A stretch of DNA of 64,000 nt from the NCBI GenBank assembly GCA_001899235.1, contig MKVR01000050.1, positions 180,765 to 244,764 of the forward strand. Direction: 5' to 3'. The stretch comes from Nitrosospira sp. 56-18 (GTDB lineage Bacteria; Pseudomonadota; Gammaproteobacteria; Burkholderiales; Nitrosomonadaceae). A program made the translations under genes and the position numbers. Of this stretch, positions 4,936-58,868 are shown one piece after another (the stretch's first letter is position 1; each line of letters begins with the position of its first letter). The notes beneath the pieces were generated by a model that saw only the letters and a list, made by a program, of their open reading frames with translations, was not told the origin of the DNA and searched no databases.

Positions 4936-7131
4936 CTACCGCCGCTCAGCTGATACGACATCGGGCACGCCCTTGATCAATCCCAGAATGCGGCGCAATT
5001 GCGGGATATCGGAAATGGCGATGGTAAACTGCAGTATCGCCGTAGCATCCCGGCTCTGGGTTCGCGTGGCGATTACGTTAACTTTTTCGCGAGACAAAAC
5101 CTGAGCGATGTCACCAAGCAGCCCGTGGCGATCCAGCGCCTTGATGCTGATATCGACCGGATAGGATATGCCCTTTTCGGCATTCCATTGCGCCGTTACG
5201 AGCCGATCCCCACTTTTCTCGACCAACCGTGCCAGACTGGCGCACTCTCGCCGATGTATGGTGATGCCGCGCCCTCGGGTGACGAAACCAGCGATTGGAT
5301 CAGGCGGCACCGGCTTGCAGCACTTTGCCAGCAAGGTGAGCAGCTTGTCCACCCCGACAATGAGCACGCCACCAGATGGCTGACGAACGCTTCCCGCAGT
5401 TACGGGTTTCGGAACTTCGACAGTTGGCGCAACCGTTTCCGGTGCTGTCCTTAGTGCCTCTTCCAGTTGCCTGCTATTGACCTCCCCTCGGGCCAACGCG
5501 GCGAAAAAAGTCTCGATCTTGGTGAACTTGAACCGTGCCGCCAATTTATCCAGTGCCAGCGACATCATTCCATGCCGCTGCAATTCCTTCTCGGCTATTG
5601 CTCGCCCTTGTGCCACGAAATCGCGTTCGCGGGAACTGAACCACTGCCTGACCTTCTGGCGGGCTCGCTGAGTTCTCAGATATCCCAGCAAGGGATTGAG
5701 CCAGTCCCGGCTCGGGCCACCTTGTTTCGCCGCGATTATTTCCACCCGTTTCGCGTTCTGGAGGGAGTAATCAAGCGGCACCATGACACCATCAACCTTT
5801 GCGCCTCGGCAGCGATGACCGAGATCCGTATGCAGTTGATAGGCAAAATCCACCGGTGTGGCGCCCTTGGGCAACGCGATGATCTTTCCTTTGGGGGTCA
5901 GCACATAAATCGTGTCCTGGAATAATGCTGTCCTGAAGTGCTCGGCGAGTTCACCGGCATCATCGACGTCATTTTTCCATTCCAGTATCTGCCTCAGCCA
6001 GGCGATCTTTTCTTCATAAGGCGCATCGCGCTTGGCCCCTTCCTTGTATCGCCAGTGCGCCGCCACACCCATCTCTGAATGCCGGTGCATTTCATGGGTA
6101 CGAATCTGCACCTCAACCACCTTGTCTTCCGGACCGGTTACCGCCGTGTGCAACGAGCGGTAGTCGTTTCCTTTCGGCTTGGCGATATAGTCGTCAAACT
6201 CCCTGGGAACAGGAATCCACAGGTTATGAACCACTCCCAGGGCGGCATAACAGTCCTTTACATCGTTCACAAGAATCCGGACCGCACGCGCGTCATGAAT
6301 CTCGCCGAAATCCACTCCCTTGCGCTTCATTTTTTTGTGAATACTGTATATATGTTTGGGACGTCCTGTTACTTCGGCCGAAATACCAGCCTGCCGCAAC
6401 TCGTGCCGCAGCTTTTCCACCAGCAGAGCAATATAGCGTTCGCGATTGACCCGGGTATCCTCAAGCAGACCGGCTATTTGCCTGTACTTTTCGGGCTCGA
6501 GCACGCGAAACGACAGATCTTCCAGTTCCCACTTTATTTGCCACAACCCCAGGCGACTCGCCAGCGGAGCAAAAATATCCAGCGTTTCGTGCGCGACCAT
6601 CGAACGCCCGGAGATATCATGCGTTGCGACATACCGGATTGTCTGCAACCGATCCGCCAATGCGAGGATGACCACGCGGATATCTTCCGCCATTGCCAGC
6701 AGCATCTTGCGTAGAGCCTCGACTTGCCCGCTCTGATCCGCTGCATTGACGGCATTTCCTTTTCCAAGGGATCGAATGCGGCTCATGCGGAACACCCCTT
6801 CCACCAGGTGAGCCACGACCGCTCCAAATGCGGCAAGCAACTCGTCCTCGTACCGGTCGAGGGTGCGTGGAACATCATGAAGCACGCCGGCTACCAGAGT
6901 ATCGGAATCCACCCGCAACCGTGCAAGAATGCCTACTGTTCCTGTTATATGCTCGCCGAGTGGTTCGCCGGTGGGGAGAAATTTGCCTGCGTAAAGCGGC
7001 TGTGAAAACGCCAGTGCAGGCCGCACGGCTTCAAATTCGCCCGGGGAAAGGATTGATGCCATGTTATCCGGCCAGGAAGAATCATTTGGCTCGCCAGCGT
7101 CAATGGGCAATATTCTGGAAGATGAAATCAT
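4936..7131 (-). CDS. relA: RelA-type (p)ppGpp synthetase; start set at ATG 7131 (MISSSRI) or ATG 7062 (MASILSP) because the ORF-track start at 7200 lies inside a repeat element
   Basis: Synthetase region with REFDDYIAKPKGNDYRSLHTAV (RelA-type EFDD), TGS and ACT domains; degenerate HD motif HDVPRT. Confidence 0.9.
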   Translation of the reverse strand: MISSSRILPIDAGEPNDSSWPDNMASILSPGEFEAVRPALAFSQPLYAGKFLPTGEPLGEHITGTVGILARLRVDSDTLVAGVLHDVPRTLDRYEDELLAAFGAVVAHLVEGVFRMSRIRSLGKGNAVNAADQSGQVEALRKMLLAMAEDIRVVILALADRLQTIRYVATHDISGRSMVAHETLDIFAPLASRLGLWQIKWELEDLSFRVLEPEKYRQIAGLLEDTRVNRERYIALLVEKLRHELRQAGISAEVTGRPKHIYSIHKKMKRKGVDFGEIHDARAVRILVNDVKDCYAALGVVHNLWIPVPREFDDYIAKPKGNDYRSLHTAVTGPEDKVVEVQIRTHEMHRHSEMGVAAHWRYKEGAKRDAPYEEKIAWLRQILEWKNDVDDAGELAEHFRTALFQDTIYVLTPKGKIIALPKGATPVDFAYQLHTDLGHRCRGAKVDGVMVPLDYSLQNAKRVEIIAAKQGGPSRDWLNPLLGYLRTQRARQKVRQWFSSRERDFVAQGRAIAEKELQRHGMMSLALDKLAARFKFTKIETFFAALARGEVNSRQLEEALRTAPETVAPTVEVPKPVTAGSVRQPSGGVLIVGVDKLLTLLAKCCKPVPPDPIAGFVTRGRGITIHRRECASLARLVEKSGDRLVTAQWNAEKGISYPVDISIKALDRHGLLGDIAQVLSREKVNVIATRTQSRDATAILQFTIAISDIPQLRRILGLIKGVPDVVSAERR

Positions 7132-7356
7132 CCTAAATCCGGTAGTTGGACAGGGTGGAGTGTGCGGTTTTTGGAGTCCAGGGCAAGGCGCAACGGCCAT
7201 TCCATTCCAAGGAACTGCAACGCAGCCATGTGCCGCAAATATCGCACAACCCGCCCTGTAGCGAACTCTCCACGCAGGTGAACGTCGAATACCACGGCAA
7301 GTCTTTGTGGATCATGGCTCCAAACTGGAAATGAGCGGTTAACTGCCGGATTCAGG
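7132..7356 (+). mobile_element. MITE-like element, family A copy 1 (225 bp core), TIR CCTAAATCCGGTAGTT / AACTGCCGGATTCAGG, flanked by ATCAT/ATCAA
   Basis: High similarity to 42797..43027; near-perfect terminal inverted repeats; 4/5-bp flanking direct repeat. Confidence 0.85.
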
Positions 7357-7409
7357 ATCAAGAAAATATAGCGCGCAAATTTGTTAACCTGCCGTCCATT
7401 GCCACAAGT

Positions 7410-9806
7410 TTACACCGTACTCGCCTCGTGCCAGTAGCGGCGTTGAAGGATGCGCGAGGTTTCGACCATCATGCCGTTGTCCCCGAAACGCAGCATCACG
7501 GCGCCATCCATATCGCTGCGCAACAGCGTGCTGCCCAGCGTGCGATAACGTTCCAATACCCCGGCCTCAGGATGGCCGAAACGGTTCCGGTAACCTACGC
7601 TGAAAATCACGAGCCGGGGGTCGACCTGGCGCACAAACTCTTCAGTCGAGGAGGTCCTGCTGCCATGGTGAGGCGCCAGCAGTACAGTGGAGCCGAGAAG
7701 AGCAGAATGATGCTTGAGCAATTCATATTCCGTTTTTCTTTCGATGTCGGCCGGCAGTAGAACACTGCCGTAAGCCGTCGTGATTTTCAGCACGCAGCTC
7801 AACCCGTTCGGTTTGATTCCAGGCCTGCCATAGCTCGGACCGGACGGATGCAGGACGTCGAAGCGGACGCCGTCCCAGGACCATGATTGCCCCTCCATAC
7901 ACCTTTCCTTCTCTTCCGCTGCAAGCTGTATCGGATGCCCGGTATCGAGGGAGGAGATCAATCGCTTTACCGGCACCGCTTCCAGCACCGACAGAGCCCC
8001 GCCGCTGTGATCGCTATCCGAATGCGAGACGATCATGGTGTCGAGTTGCTGAATACCTTCGGCACGCAGAAAAGGGACAATTATGCGGCTCCCGCTATCC
8101 GCCTCGGAATTGAAACCGGGACCGGTATCATAAAGCAGCGTATGATTTTTGGTGCGCGCGACAACTGCCAATCCCTGGCCGACATCCAGCACGGTAAGCC
8201 ATAGTTCTCCGGATTTCGGCCTCGCGGGAAGCACGAAAAAGATCGGCAGCAACGCGACTATGCCCAACCAGCGTGACGGAAAACCCGCGACCAGTCCCAA
8301 GCTCCATCCGAACCGGCCGGGCAGCAGCATCCAGGCGACGCCCGCCAGACCGGCCACCACCGCCCACGCTGGTGGCGCGTGCTGGGTCCAGACTGCCTGC
8401 GGCAGATCTCCCAGCCATGCGAGTATCTGCATGCAGCCGTTCAGCACAGCGTGAGCGGGCAGTAAAAGAAACTCGAATGGAGGCAGCGCTCCCAGCAGGG
8501 CCAGCGGCACTACCACCAGGCTTACGAGAGGAATAGCGATTGCATTGGCAAGAGGGGAAACCAGGGACACCTGCTGAAACATTGCCAATAATAGAGGTAT
8601 CAGGCCGAGGGTTATCGCCCATTGCACCCGGATCCATTCTGTCAGCCAGTTGGTTTTACCGATTCGCCCGGTCGATATCAGCAGAATGAGCCCGATGGCG
8701 CCGAATGACAACCAGAAGCCGGGCGCCAGCACAGCCCATGGATCAAGCATCACGACCGCCAGCAGGGCCCAGGCCAATACGGAAGTCGCGGAGGCAAGCC
8801 ACCCCCGCCACAAAGCGAAGGCAACCACTGCCAGCATATAGACAGTGCGCTGGGCCGGAATCGCGAAACCTGCCAATAGCGCATAGCCTAACGCTGCAGC
8901 CAGTCCCGCCAGCACCGCGGCTTTGCGTGCGGGCAACCACATGACGAGCCTTTGGCTCCTGCGCCATGACGCATACATCAGCGTGAAAAACAGTCCCGAG
9001 ACCATGGTGACATGCAATCCGGAAATGCTCATGAGGTGATTCACGCCGGTACGAGTGAATATTTTCCACTGTTCGCGGGGAATTGCGCGCTGATCCCCTA
9101 CCGCGAGCGCGACAAGTATTCCTCGATATTCGTTCTGGGATAATGCCTGTAGAAAATTCTCGCGAATCGTCTGGCGCAAGCGTTCGATACGGTACGGAAC
9201 CTGCCCGGCCATGTCGTCCAGGAGCAGGTTATCTTCGCTCTCCCGCACGTAGCCGGCGGCGCGGATATTACGCTCCAGCGCCCATTGCTCGAAGTCGAAG
9301 CCATGCGGGTTGATGCTGCCGTGAGGTCGCTTGAGGCGTACCGCCAGTCGCCAGCGCTCGCCCGCCCGCAGGTTGCGGTCGAGGAGCCGGGAATCAGCCC
9401 TTTTCTTATTGTCGTACCAGTTGAGGGAAATGTGTGCCGGGACGATGGCGCCAGGGGTCAGCACTTGCTCCACGTCAAAAGTGAATCGCAAACCACGCTC
9501 GCCAGCCTGGGGAAGTTCCGCGATCACGCCTATCAACTGGATATCGCGACCCTCCCATTCATGGGGGAGCGCGTCGGCCAGACGCCAATGGGCAAGCGCG
9601 GCCGCCCAGAAAAATCCCGCGACTGCAAATGAGACAATGAGCAGTATTTTCGAGGCAGCGGCAAGGATGGAAGTATGGGACCGGCATAATAAAAATGCCG
9701 GGGCCGCGCACAGCAGAAGCACCCACACCCAGCCGAGGTAAGGGAGGATCGGCTGTTGCTGCAACAGCCATACCCCGAAGGTGAACGCAACGATGCTTTT
9801 TTGCAT
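7410..9806 (-). CDS. comEC: DNA internalization-related competence protein ComEC/Rec2
   Basis: 798 aa; competence domain (MSISGLHVTMVSGLFF) plus C-terminal metallo-beta-lactamase-like domain (DVGQGLAVVARTKNHTLLYDTGP...SHSDSDHSGG). Confidence 0.93.
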   Translation of the reverse strand: MQKSIVAFTFGVWLLQQQPILPYLGWVWVLLLCAAPAFLLCRSHTSILAAASKILLIVSFAVAGFFWAAALAHWRLADALPHEWEGRDIQLIGVIAELPQAGERGLRFTFDVEQVLTPGAIVPAHISLNWYDNKKRADSRLLDRNLRAGERWRLAVRLKRPHGSINPHGFDFEQWALERNIRAAGYVRESEDNLLLDDMAGQVPYRIERLRQTIRENFLQALSQNEYRGILVALAVGDQRAIPREQWKIFTRTGVNHLMSISGLHVTMVSGLFFTLMYASWRRSQRLVMWLPARKAAVLAGLAAALGYALLAGFAIPAQRTVYMLAVVAFALWRGWLASATSVLAWALLAVVMLDPWAVLAPGFWLSFGAIGLILLISTGRIGKTNWLTEWIRVQWAITLGLIPLLLAMFQQVSLVSPLANAIAIPLVSLVVVPLALLGALPPFEFLLLPAHAVLNGCMQILAWLGDLPQAVWTQHAPPAWAVVAGLAGVAWMLLPGRFGWSLGLVAGFPSRWLGIVALLPIFFVLPARPKSGELWLTVLDVGQGLAVVARTKNHTLLYDTGPGFNSEADSGSRIIVPFLRAEGIQQLDTMIVSHSDSDHSGGALSVLEAVPVKRLISSLDTGHPIQLAAEEKERCMEGQSWSWDGVRFDVLHPSGPSYGRPGIKPNGLSCVLKITTAYGSVLLPADIERKTEYELLKHHSALLGSTVLLAPHHGSRTSSTEEFVRQVDPRLVIFSVGYRNRFGHPEAGVLERYRTLGSTLLRSDMDGAVMLRFGDNGMMVETSRILQRRYWHEASTV

Positions 9807-41960: not shown

Positions 41961-42761
41961 GTGCATGCCCTTCGGCGCGGCACTCGACATATTCGCCAGG
42001 GAAAAACCCTGAAATTCATGCAGCGGTCGCCTGACTTGGATAATCATTCAGAATCTCCGGTTCATACGGAACCTCCAGGTGAACCGGTTGTTCACATCAG
42101 GCAGCTCTCCAAATGCTATCACCGCGGAGGACAGATCATACCCGTACTGACCAATATCTCTTTCGATATCATGCATGGGGAATTTATCGCGCTGATGGGT
42201 CCTTCGGGCTCGGGAAAAAGCACCCTGCTCAACCTTATTGCCGGCATCGATAAGCCCGACAGTGGATTGCTGAAAATCAACGGAACAGACATCGCAGCCC
42301 TCTCCGAATCGGAACTGGCGGATTGGCGGGCAGCGAACGTGGGGTTTATATTTCAGTTCTACAATCTGATGCCGGTGCTGACGGCCTTTGAAAATGTGGA
42401 GCTGCCACTGCTGCTCACACCGCTTGCACGCGACCAGCGCCGCAGGCGCGTGGAACTTGCATTATCGATGGTAGGACTGCGCGATCGAATGGAGCATTAT
42501 CCGTCCGAGTTATCGGGAGGCCAGCAGCAACGCGTTGCCATTGCGCGCGCGATCATAACGGATCCAGCCCTGCTGGTAGCGGACGAACCCACCGGAGATC
42601 TTGATCGATCATCAGCAAATGACATCCTGGCAATGCTCGAGCGCCTCAACAGAGAATTGGGCAAAACCATCATCATGGTGACGCACGATCCGCACGCCGC
42701 TCAATCCGCCCATTCGATCCGGCATCTGGAAAAAGGCGAACTGGAACTGAAGAAGCACTGA
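41961..42761 (+). CDS. ABC transporter ATP-binding protein (MacB/LolD type)
   Basis: [33 protein letters not shown]; operon with adaptor and permeases. Confidence 0.92.
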
Positions 42762-42796
42762 AAGATCTATCGTTCAACGGATTGGCGCTCAATCAT

Positions 42797-43027
42797 CCTC
42801 GACCCAGCAGTTGGACAGGGTGGAGTTTGCAGTTTTTGGAGTTGCGGGGCAAGGCGCAACGACGCGGAATGGCCATTCCAACGAGTTGCAACGCAGCCAT
42901 GTGCCGCAAAAGTCGCGCAATCCGTCCTGTAGCGAACTCACCATATAGGCGAACGTCGAGTACCTCCGAAAATCTTTGTGGATCATAGCTCTAAACTGGA
43001 AGTGAGCAGTCATCTGCCGGATTTAGG
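42797..43027 (+). mobile_element. MITE-like element, family A copy 2 (231 bp core) flanked by perfect 5-bp direct repeat ATCAT
   Basis: Homologous to 7132..7356; TIR; ATCAT at 42792-42796 and 43028-43032. Confidence 0.88.
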
Positions 43028-43030
43028 ATC

Positions 43031-44188
43031 ATGCATTTTCTCAAGCTCATACTAAGAAATACCTTGCGCCACAAGCTGCGCTCCGGTCTCACCGTACTTG
43101 GCCTGGTGGTAGCCATTATTGCCTTTGGTCTGCTTCGAACGGTAGTGGATGCCTGGTACGCCGGTGCAGAGGGCGCATCCTCGACCAGGCTGATCACGCG
43201 CAACGCGATTTCGCTGGTATTTCCGCTACCCATCAACTACCAGGAACGAATCCGTAAAGTCGATGGCGTCTCTGCAATCAGCCATGCCAGCTGGTTCGGA
43301 GGAGTATACGTCAGCGAGAAGAACTTTTTCCCTCAGTTCGCGGTAGACGCAAAAACGTATTTCGATCTGTACCCCGAATATGTCATAGCGCCACAGGAAA
43401 TGAAAGCGTTCCGCGCCGACCGCAAAGGTTGCGTAATCGGGCGTAAGCTTGCGAACACTCATGGCTTCAAGGTAGGCGACACTATTCCGCTACGCGGAAC
43501 CATTTACCCTGGCTCGTGGAATTTCACCATAAGAGCGATCTATGATGGCGCGGAATCTGCAACCGATACATCACAGTTTTTTTTCCACTGGAATTATCTC
43601 AACGAAACGATGAAAAAGGCCGTTGCCCGGCGAACCGACTGGATAGGCGTATATGTTATTCAGATTTCCGATCCCGACAAAGCGGCGGAAATATCAGACG
43701 AGGTAGACGCGATGTTCCGCAATTCCCTGGCCGAAACCCTTACGGAAACAGAAAAAGCATTTCAGCTGGGCTTCGTTTCCATGACAGAAGCGATAGTCAT
43801 CGCTATACGCATTGTTTCCTTTGTGGTGATATTCATCATTCTGGCGGTCATGGCCAACACCATGGCAATGACCGCGCGGGAGCGGATCCGGGAGTACGCC
43901 ACCCTTAAAGCCCTGGGGTTCGGACCCTGCTTCCTTGCCGGACTGATTTATGGCGAGTCTCTCATGATCGCGCTTGCCGGCGCTGCAATCGGAATCGTGT
44001 TGACGTTTCCAGTCGCCGCCCAGTTCAGCGAGCAGGTCGGGACGCTTTTTCCCGTTTTCGGGGTTTCCAGGGAAACGGTCTATATGCAGGCGGCCGCAGC
44101 CGCAGCAGTTGGATTGGCAGCTTCAGTGTTGCCCGCTCTGCGGGCGGCCCGCGTGCCCATCGTGGATGGCCTGAGGAGCATTGGCTAA
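43031..44188 (+). CDS. ABC transporter permease (FtsX/MacB type)
   Basis: MHFLKLILRNTLRHKLRSGLTVLGLVVAIIAFGLLRTVVDAW...RAARVPIVDGLRSIG. Confidence 0.9.
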   Translation: MHFLKLILRNTLRHKLRSGLTVLGLVVAIIAFGLLRTVVDAWYAGAEGASSTRLITRNAISLVFPLPINYQERIRKVDGVSAISHASWFGGVYVSEKNFFPQFAVDAKTYFDLYPEYVIAPQEMKAFRADRKGCVIGRKLANTHGFKVGDTIPLRGTIYPGSWNFTIRAIYDGAESATDTSQFFFHWNYLNETMKKAVARRTDWIGVYVIQISDPDKAAEISDEVDAMFRNSLAETLTETEKAFQLGFVSMTEAIVIAIRIVSFVVIFIILAVMANTMAMTARERIREYATLKALGFGPCFLAGLIYGESLMIALAGAAIGIVLTFPVAAQFSEQVGTLFPVFGVSRETVYMQAAAAAAVGLAASVLPALRAARVPIVDGLRSIG

Positions 44189-58755: not shown

Positions 58756-58868
58756 CCTAAATCCGGCCGCTGACCGCTCATTTCCGTTTTAGAGCTGTGA
58801 TCCGCAAAGACTTTCGCGGCACTCGACGTTCACCCATATGGTGAGTTCGCTACAGGGGCGGATTTAGG
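58756..58868 (-). mobile_element. Internally deleted family A MITE copy 3 (113 bp core), inverted relative to copies 1 and 2
   Basis: CCTAAATCCGG...GGATTTAGG; rc matches the right arm of copies 1/2 up to GTTCGCTACAGG, then jumps to the opposite terminus. Confidence 0.82.

Follow-up and report, generated by a model that had tools for sequence, protein, structure and literature searches.

ERIC, NEMIS (Correia) and BOX-type repeats are multi-copy, intergenic, imperfect palindromes that can fold as RNA in mRNAs. The element found upstream of relA in Nitrosospira sp. 56-18 appears to be set apart from these repeats by its different sequence, ends and target duplication, and by the lack of any Rfam covariance-model match at the gathering score. 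MITEAba12 of Acinetobacter is, like the present family, a bacterial MITE with terminal inverted repeats (TIRs), a target duplication and start codons at its ends; it is 113 bp long, has only weak predicted secondary structure, was studied across the Moraxellaceae, and element-to-gene 5′ fusions were reported for it (PMC6382973). However, MITEAba12 has another IS origin, whereas the present family has a strong conserved hairpin and occurs class-wide. The CCTAGAAA-like MITE ends in other genera resemble the piggyBac end, although this is a resemblance only; unlike the MITE family, piggyBac has a TTAA target and eukaryotic hosts. The IS1380 transposases are the outgroup of the eukaryotic piggyBac transposons (PMC10813416). 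In the IS1380 family (prototype IS1380, including ISEcp1; transposase NF033539 / PF13701), the ends start with CCYARAT or CCTGAATCCG, like those of the MITE, and the members from the same order have A+T-rich 5-bp NTNAW duplications, essentially the same word as the MITE target WTNAW. The MITE differs from IS1380 in that it has no transposase, is 235 bp long, and its ends diverge after 7–11 bases.

Structure of the comEC–relA junction

We interpret the locus as a non-autonomous IS1380-type MITE that probably inserted between comEC and relA at the WTNAW target ATGAT, and assign this reading a probability of about 0.8. The following features were located in the window, which is the whole stretch of 64,000 nucleotides that was analysed; start codons were assigned mechanically (longest ORF).

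4936–7131, minus strand: relA, RelA/SpoT family, 731 aa from the ATG at 7131 (TIGR00691, 637.7 bits; NF008124, 667 bits, below its cut-off of 728)
7127–7131, no strand: target-site duplication on the relA side, ATCAT (on the minus strand ATGAT, containing the relA ATG), from sequence
7132–7356, plus strand: MITE copy of 225 bp, 91.6% identical to the family consensus (235 bp)
7132–7148, plus strand: left terminal inverted repeat CCTAAATCCGGTAGTTG, from sequence
7149–7270, plus strand: long internal hairpin, from covariation across the family (covariance-model match G000:C50:187907-188035, 97.6 bits)
7340–7356, minus strand: right terminal inverted repeat CCTGAATCCGGCAGTTA, from sequence (146 end matches in the genome)
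7357–7361, no strand: target-site duplication on the comEC side, ATCAA, a single base altered, from sequence
7410–9806, minus strand: comEC, directly upstream of relA on the same strand (TIGR00361, 356 bits; adjacency conserved in relatives)
42797–43027, plus strand: second MITE copy, 231 bp, with perfect ATCAT duplications at 42792–42796 and 43028–43032

An earlier note on this DNA had described a 225-bp TIR element with a 5-bp duplication at 7132–7356. Both the coordinates and the sequence are borne out, and the duplication matches at four of its five positions (7127–7131 against 7357–7361). The left end CCTAAATCCGGTAGTT begins at 7132, the right end AACTGCCGGATTCAGG closes at 7356, and the terminal repeats (CCTAAATCCGGTAGTT / CCTGAATCCGGCAGTT) are 16–17 bp long. 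Relative to the 235-bp consensus, about 10 bp are missing from the hairpin apex, which is partly damaged. The insertion lies exactly at the relA start codon, as was also claimed, because the reverse complement of 7127–7131 is ATGAT and relA starts at 7131. The translation of this gene contains an EFDD motif, which is of the RelA type, and an HD motif without ED; these motifs, together with a separate RelA/SpoT paralogue (G000:C20), led us to assign it to relA rather than spoT.

The second copy in the window lies in sense orientation between an ABC-transporter ATPase gene (41961–42761) and the cognate permease gene, and the ATCAT duplication overlaps the permease ATG (43031). A single end-like match, CCTAAATCCGGCCGCT, with three mismatches and without a partner end, is present at 58756.

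Copy number, duplications and empty sites

By searching the host genome with the element (BLAST), a check proposed in the earlier note, at least 40 copies were found at 72–100% identity. The 16-bp end motif, at two mismatches or fewer, occurs 146 times in the genome, compared with 2 occurrences of a reversed control pattern. Both counts are far above what chance would give. Most copies in this genome are flanked by a 5-bp duplication of the form WTNAW matching at four or five of five positions. In other Nitrosospira, the duplication is perfect in 51 of 83 copies and matches at four of five positions in 22 more; position 2 is T in 70/73 and position 4 is A in 73/73. The 235-bp consensus contains no long conserved ORF, short open stretches only, and is taken as not coding. 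With its TIRs, fixed 5-bp duplication, dispersed copies, empty sites and no internal transposase, the element is a MITE, and its earlier description as non-autonomous agrees with these multiple TIR-bounded copies. Short versions of 90–116 bp with the same ends are also present in this genome (L048, L055, L056, L064), one of them (L064) with a perfect TTGAA duplication. A version of 361–386 bp in four other genomes (G010, G013, G019 and G020; L217–L221, L229, L230) carries about 145 bp of inserted G+C-rich sequence in its hairpin apex and has the same kind of duplications.

By comparing the other species of the genus (L184–L204), the comEC–relA junction was found to be empty at all retrieved relA loci except that of G011, which provides the empty site in relatives that had been suggested as a check. 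A single-copy sequence, a conserved relA upstream region and no empty site had been named beforehand as observations speaking against an insertion, and the opposite was found in each case. In G011 (L196), a member of the same family inserted independently and in the opposite orientation, within the first relA codons and with the duplication TTCAA. The right end of this element gives a new in-frame relA ATG (ATG AGC GAT CAA CTA CCG GAT TCA G) and encodes MSDQLPDSG, which is nearly the native N-terminus, MSNELPDSA, located upstream of it. In several Nitrosospira, the native start of relA is itself similar to the right end of the element (by eye, about 18 bases agree out of 26), which may be a coincidence or a remnant. 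Because the copy number per genome is high, two independent insertions at relA are unremarkable. The median identity of the copies to the consensus is 90%, and since the relA copy stands at 91.6%, its insertion is probably old, with relA probably intact beneath it.

Relationship to IS1380 elements

Within the same order, the ends of IS1380 elements are CCCARATTT.../CCTAGATTT..., given also as CCCARATTTYCCATTAG or CCTAGATTTTCCATTAG, and their 5-bp duplications are TTAAT, ATTAA, TTCAA, CTCAT, TTCAT, TTGAA and ATGAA; in other IS1380 subgroups, the targets are 4-bp CTAG/TTAA-like words or are less specific. In one IS1380 family with the ends CCTGAATCCGTGTTCCC, the first 10 bases are common with the MITE end CCTGAATCCGGCAGTT. 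The search for an IS with shared ends, as proposed earlier, was thus successful for the outer 7–11 bases, which IS1380 elements share, but not for the full ends: no autonomous IS1380 with identical ends was found in the host genome, the genus, the sampled genomes of the order and class, or the high-copy genomes, and the inner ends differ. In the host genome, IS1380 was detected only as decayed fragments without MITE-like ends. IS1380-like transposase fragments of this kind, with several stops and no recognisable MITE-like ends, lie at G000:C50:69319-69839 (L170, L171). The PF13701 matches of G021 belong to an unrelated IS with other ends. The closed genome G555 (L375–L401) contains 47 IS1380 matches with the ends CCTGAATCCGTGTTCCC and 5-bp duplications, plus two MITE hairpin matches. 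In its first 7–11 end bases and its target word, the element matches the IS1380 type. We hypothesize that it was mobilised in trans by an IS1380-family transposase, which would no longer be intact in this genome.

Preference for gene edges and orientation of copies

Insertions were reverted to the empty site and compared with every other WTNAW word in their flanking sequences; a few of the loci counted are orthologous between species, too few to alter the result. In the host genome, 5 of 37 insertions are at start codons, compared with 1.3% of the control WTNAW sites (p = 2e-4), and 7 of 37 at stop codons, compared with 1.5% (p = 3.5e-6). The corresponding values in other species are 8 of 73 against 1.2% for start codons (p = 5e-6) and 17 of 73 against 1.4% for stop codons (p = 2e-15). 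Gene interiors are avoided (22–23% of insertions, 76% of controls), and the edges are still enriched about six-fold among non-coding sites alone (p = 2e-12). The earlier note placed the insertion correctly at the relA start; it is not specific to relA, however, because insertion at start and stop codons is a habit of the family. The junction of the element end CCGGATTTAGG with an ATG at or next to it recurs at relA, at an ABC ATPase gene, and at folD-, lepA-, kdpC- and fliI-like genes (these four named from their translated N-termini), and this end places a GGA 7–9 nt before the ATG held in the duplication. Since WTNAW can contain ATGA, TAA and TGA, and the duplication restores them, insertion at these positions would be tolerated. 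The target word largely accounts for the presence of the MITE at relA.

Antisense orientation predominates among copies in tandem gene pairs (39:12, p = 2e-4), and likewise where copies sit at start codons (12:1, p = 0.003) or close to a 5′ end (51:17). The relA copy is antisense too, so the weaker-folding strand is in the relA mRNA. This bias is most simply read as the result of selection against mRNAs that contain the strong hairpin; an antisense RNA driven by a promoter would be an alternative. Insertions would survive because the 5-bp duplication keeps ATG and stop codons and because the weaker-folding strand is the one in the mRNA.

Probable consequences for relA expression

In the relatives compared, relA lies directly behind comEC, with a gap ranging from an ATGA overlap up to about 120 bp when the element is set aside. 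Thus, relA is probably served by read-through, and the MITE probably lies inside a comEC–relA operon, where relA would still be transcribed from comEC. By consensus scan, neither a sigma-70-like promoter nor a terminator was detected in the relA MITE. With this gene order and no such promoter in the element, the earlier statement that the element "must supply or separate" the relA promoter is not upheld. Nor do these scans favour a regulatory insertion, in which the hairpin or an outward promoter would deliberately set relA expression in the stringent response. The independent origin of the relA insertion in two Nitrosospira species agrees with such a role, but with many copies per genome two insertions at one gene are unsurprising, the same layout is found at many unrelated genes, and the relA copy is decayed, with its 10-bp loss and lowered identity, and bears no sign of special conservation. 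We consider such a role very improbable.

The relA start codon is kept by the relA-side duplication and not destroyed; the target ATGAT may have been the relA start codon before the insertion or may have become it. On the minus strand, the left TIR places a GGA 7–9 nt ahead of the relA ATG. With -3.3 kcal/mol, this GGA is a weak SD-like site, similar in this to several native relA starts. We suggest that translation of relA begins at the ATG within the duplication and that the element-end GGA acts as a weak ribosome-binding site. Alternatively, relA could be translated from the ATG at 7200 inside the element, which would fuse 23 element-encoded residues (MAVAPCPGLQKPHTPPCPTTGFR) in frame to MISSS. 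Up to this ATG, the element has no stop in the relA frame, a GGA lies 6–8 nt upstream of the ATG, RelA N-termini differ in length among relatives, and the independent G011 insertion gives a relA start inside the element. However, the ATG at 7131 has an equally good GGA, and the extension is proline-rich and without counterpart in relatives, so a start at 7200 seems rather unlikely.

A one-strand hairpin with covarying pairs

The consensus RNA folds with -126.8 kcal/mol, compared with -75.6 ± 4.6 for shuffled sequences (z -11.2). When 27 copies taken from many families are aligned (A3), the plus strand has an alignment energy of -86.8 kcal/mol and the minus strand one of -49.2, while column shuffles reach -2.8 ± 2.2; in 26 of the 27 single copies the plus strand is the more stable. 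In the inner hairpin without terminal repeats, 95.8% of cells are paired, compared with 33–47% in slid controls. Compensatory double changes occur in 27 of its 44 pairs (10.0 ± 1.9 after shuffling) and in 84 cells (16.2 ± 3.5), values reached in 0 of 500 shuffles; relatedness may inflate these counts, yet the slid control preserves relatedness and fails. G.U outnumbers A.C by 130 to 14 in the hairpin pairs and by 44 to 14 in Watson-Crick-dominated pairs, where the prediction on the plus strand itself favours G.U; the structure predicted on the minus strand gives 63 to 20, with fewer pairs and much less energy. The excess of G.U over A.C points to pairing within a single strand, either RNA or single-stranded DNA, and not to a DNA palindrome.

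Occurrence and meaning of the family

Within the order, the MITE was found in 49 of 399 genomes, from 24 genera, and the covariance model of the hairpin has matches in 72 of 369 genomes of the class (E ≤ 1e-5), among which weak partial matches (about 50 bits, positions 20–115) may be hairpins with no relation to the family. Each of the twelve strong loci examined carries terminal repeats and is 235–239 bp long, and most of these loci have good WTNAW duplications. In many families of the class, the length stays at 234–242 bp while the end sequences differ; the ends in other families of the order and class are CCTAGAAACGGCAGTT, CCTAGAAACCTCAGTT or CCTAGATTCCTCAGTT. No match to the MITE was found in plasmid and phage collections. 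Nothing was found in the open literature for the sequence motifs or for MITEs in Nitrosospira, and an existing ISfinder name is possible. The family, which is of fixed length, has a covarying, strand-specific hairpin and an antisense bias, occurs class-wide and is absent from Rfam, is apparently undescribed.

This constant length despite differing ends, together with the strand-specific fold, the double changes and the G.U excess, would also be expected of a mobile structured RNA, transcribed from the plus strand and functional (host-beneficial or selfish), with the TIR/transposon form only as its vehicle. However, the avoidance of the sense orientation by the copies suits a harmful RNA better than a useful one, and a strand-specific single-stranded DNA form in transposition would yield the same covariation. 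We regard a functional RNA of this kind as doubtful. Similarly tentative, and unlikely as a whole, is the wider proposal of class-wide IS1380-type MITEs of about 235 bp whose plus strand would be a functional structured RNA, whose length would be selected, and which would spread via start and stop codons restored by the duplication.

For this host, the annotation of relA should be trusted only after an experimental check of its expression and start site. Because ATGA and stop codons fit into WTNAW and are kept by the duplication, the non-autonomous IS1380-type MITE inserted at relA would illustrate a simple route for a transposon into compact operons. The family, a large group of repeats whose covariation is strong and strand-specific, provides a testable case of a transposon with a selected RNA or single-stranded DNA structure.
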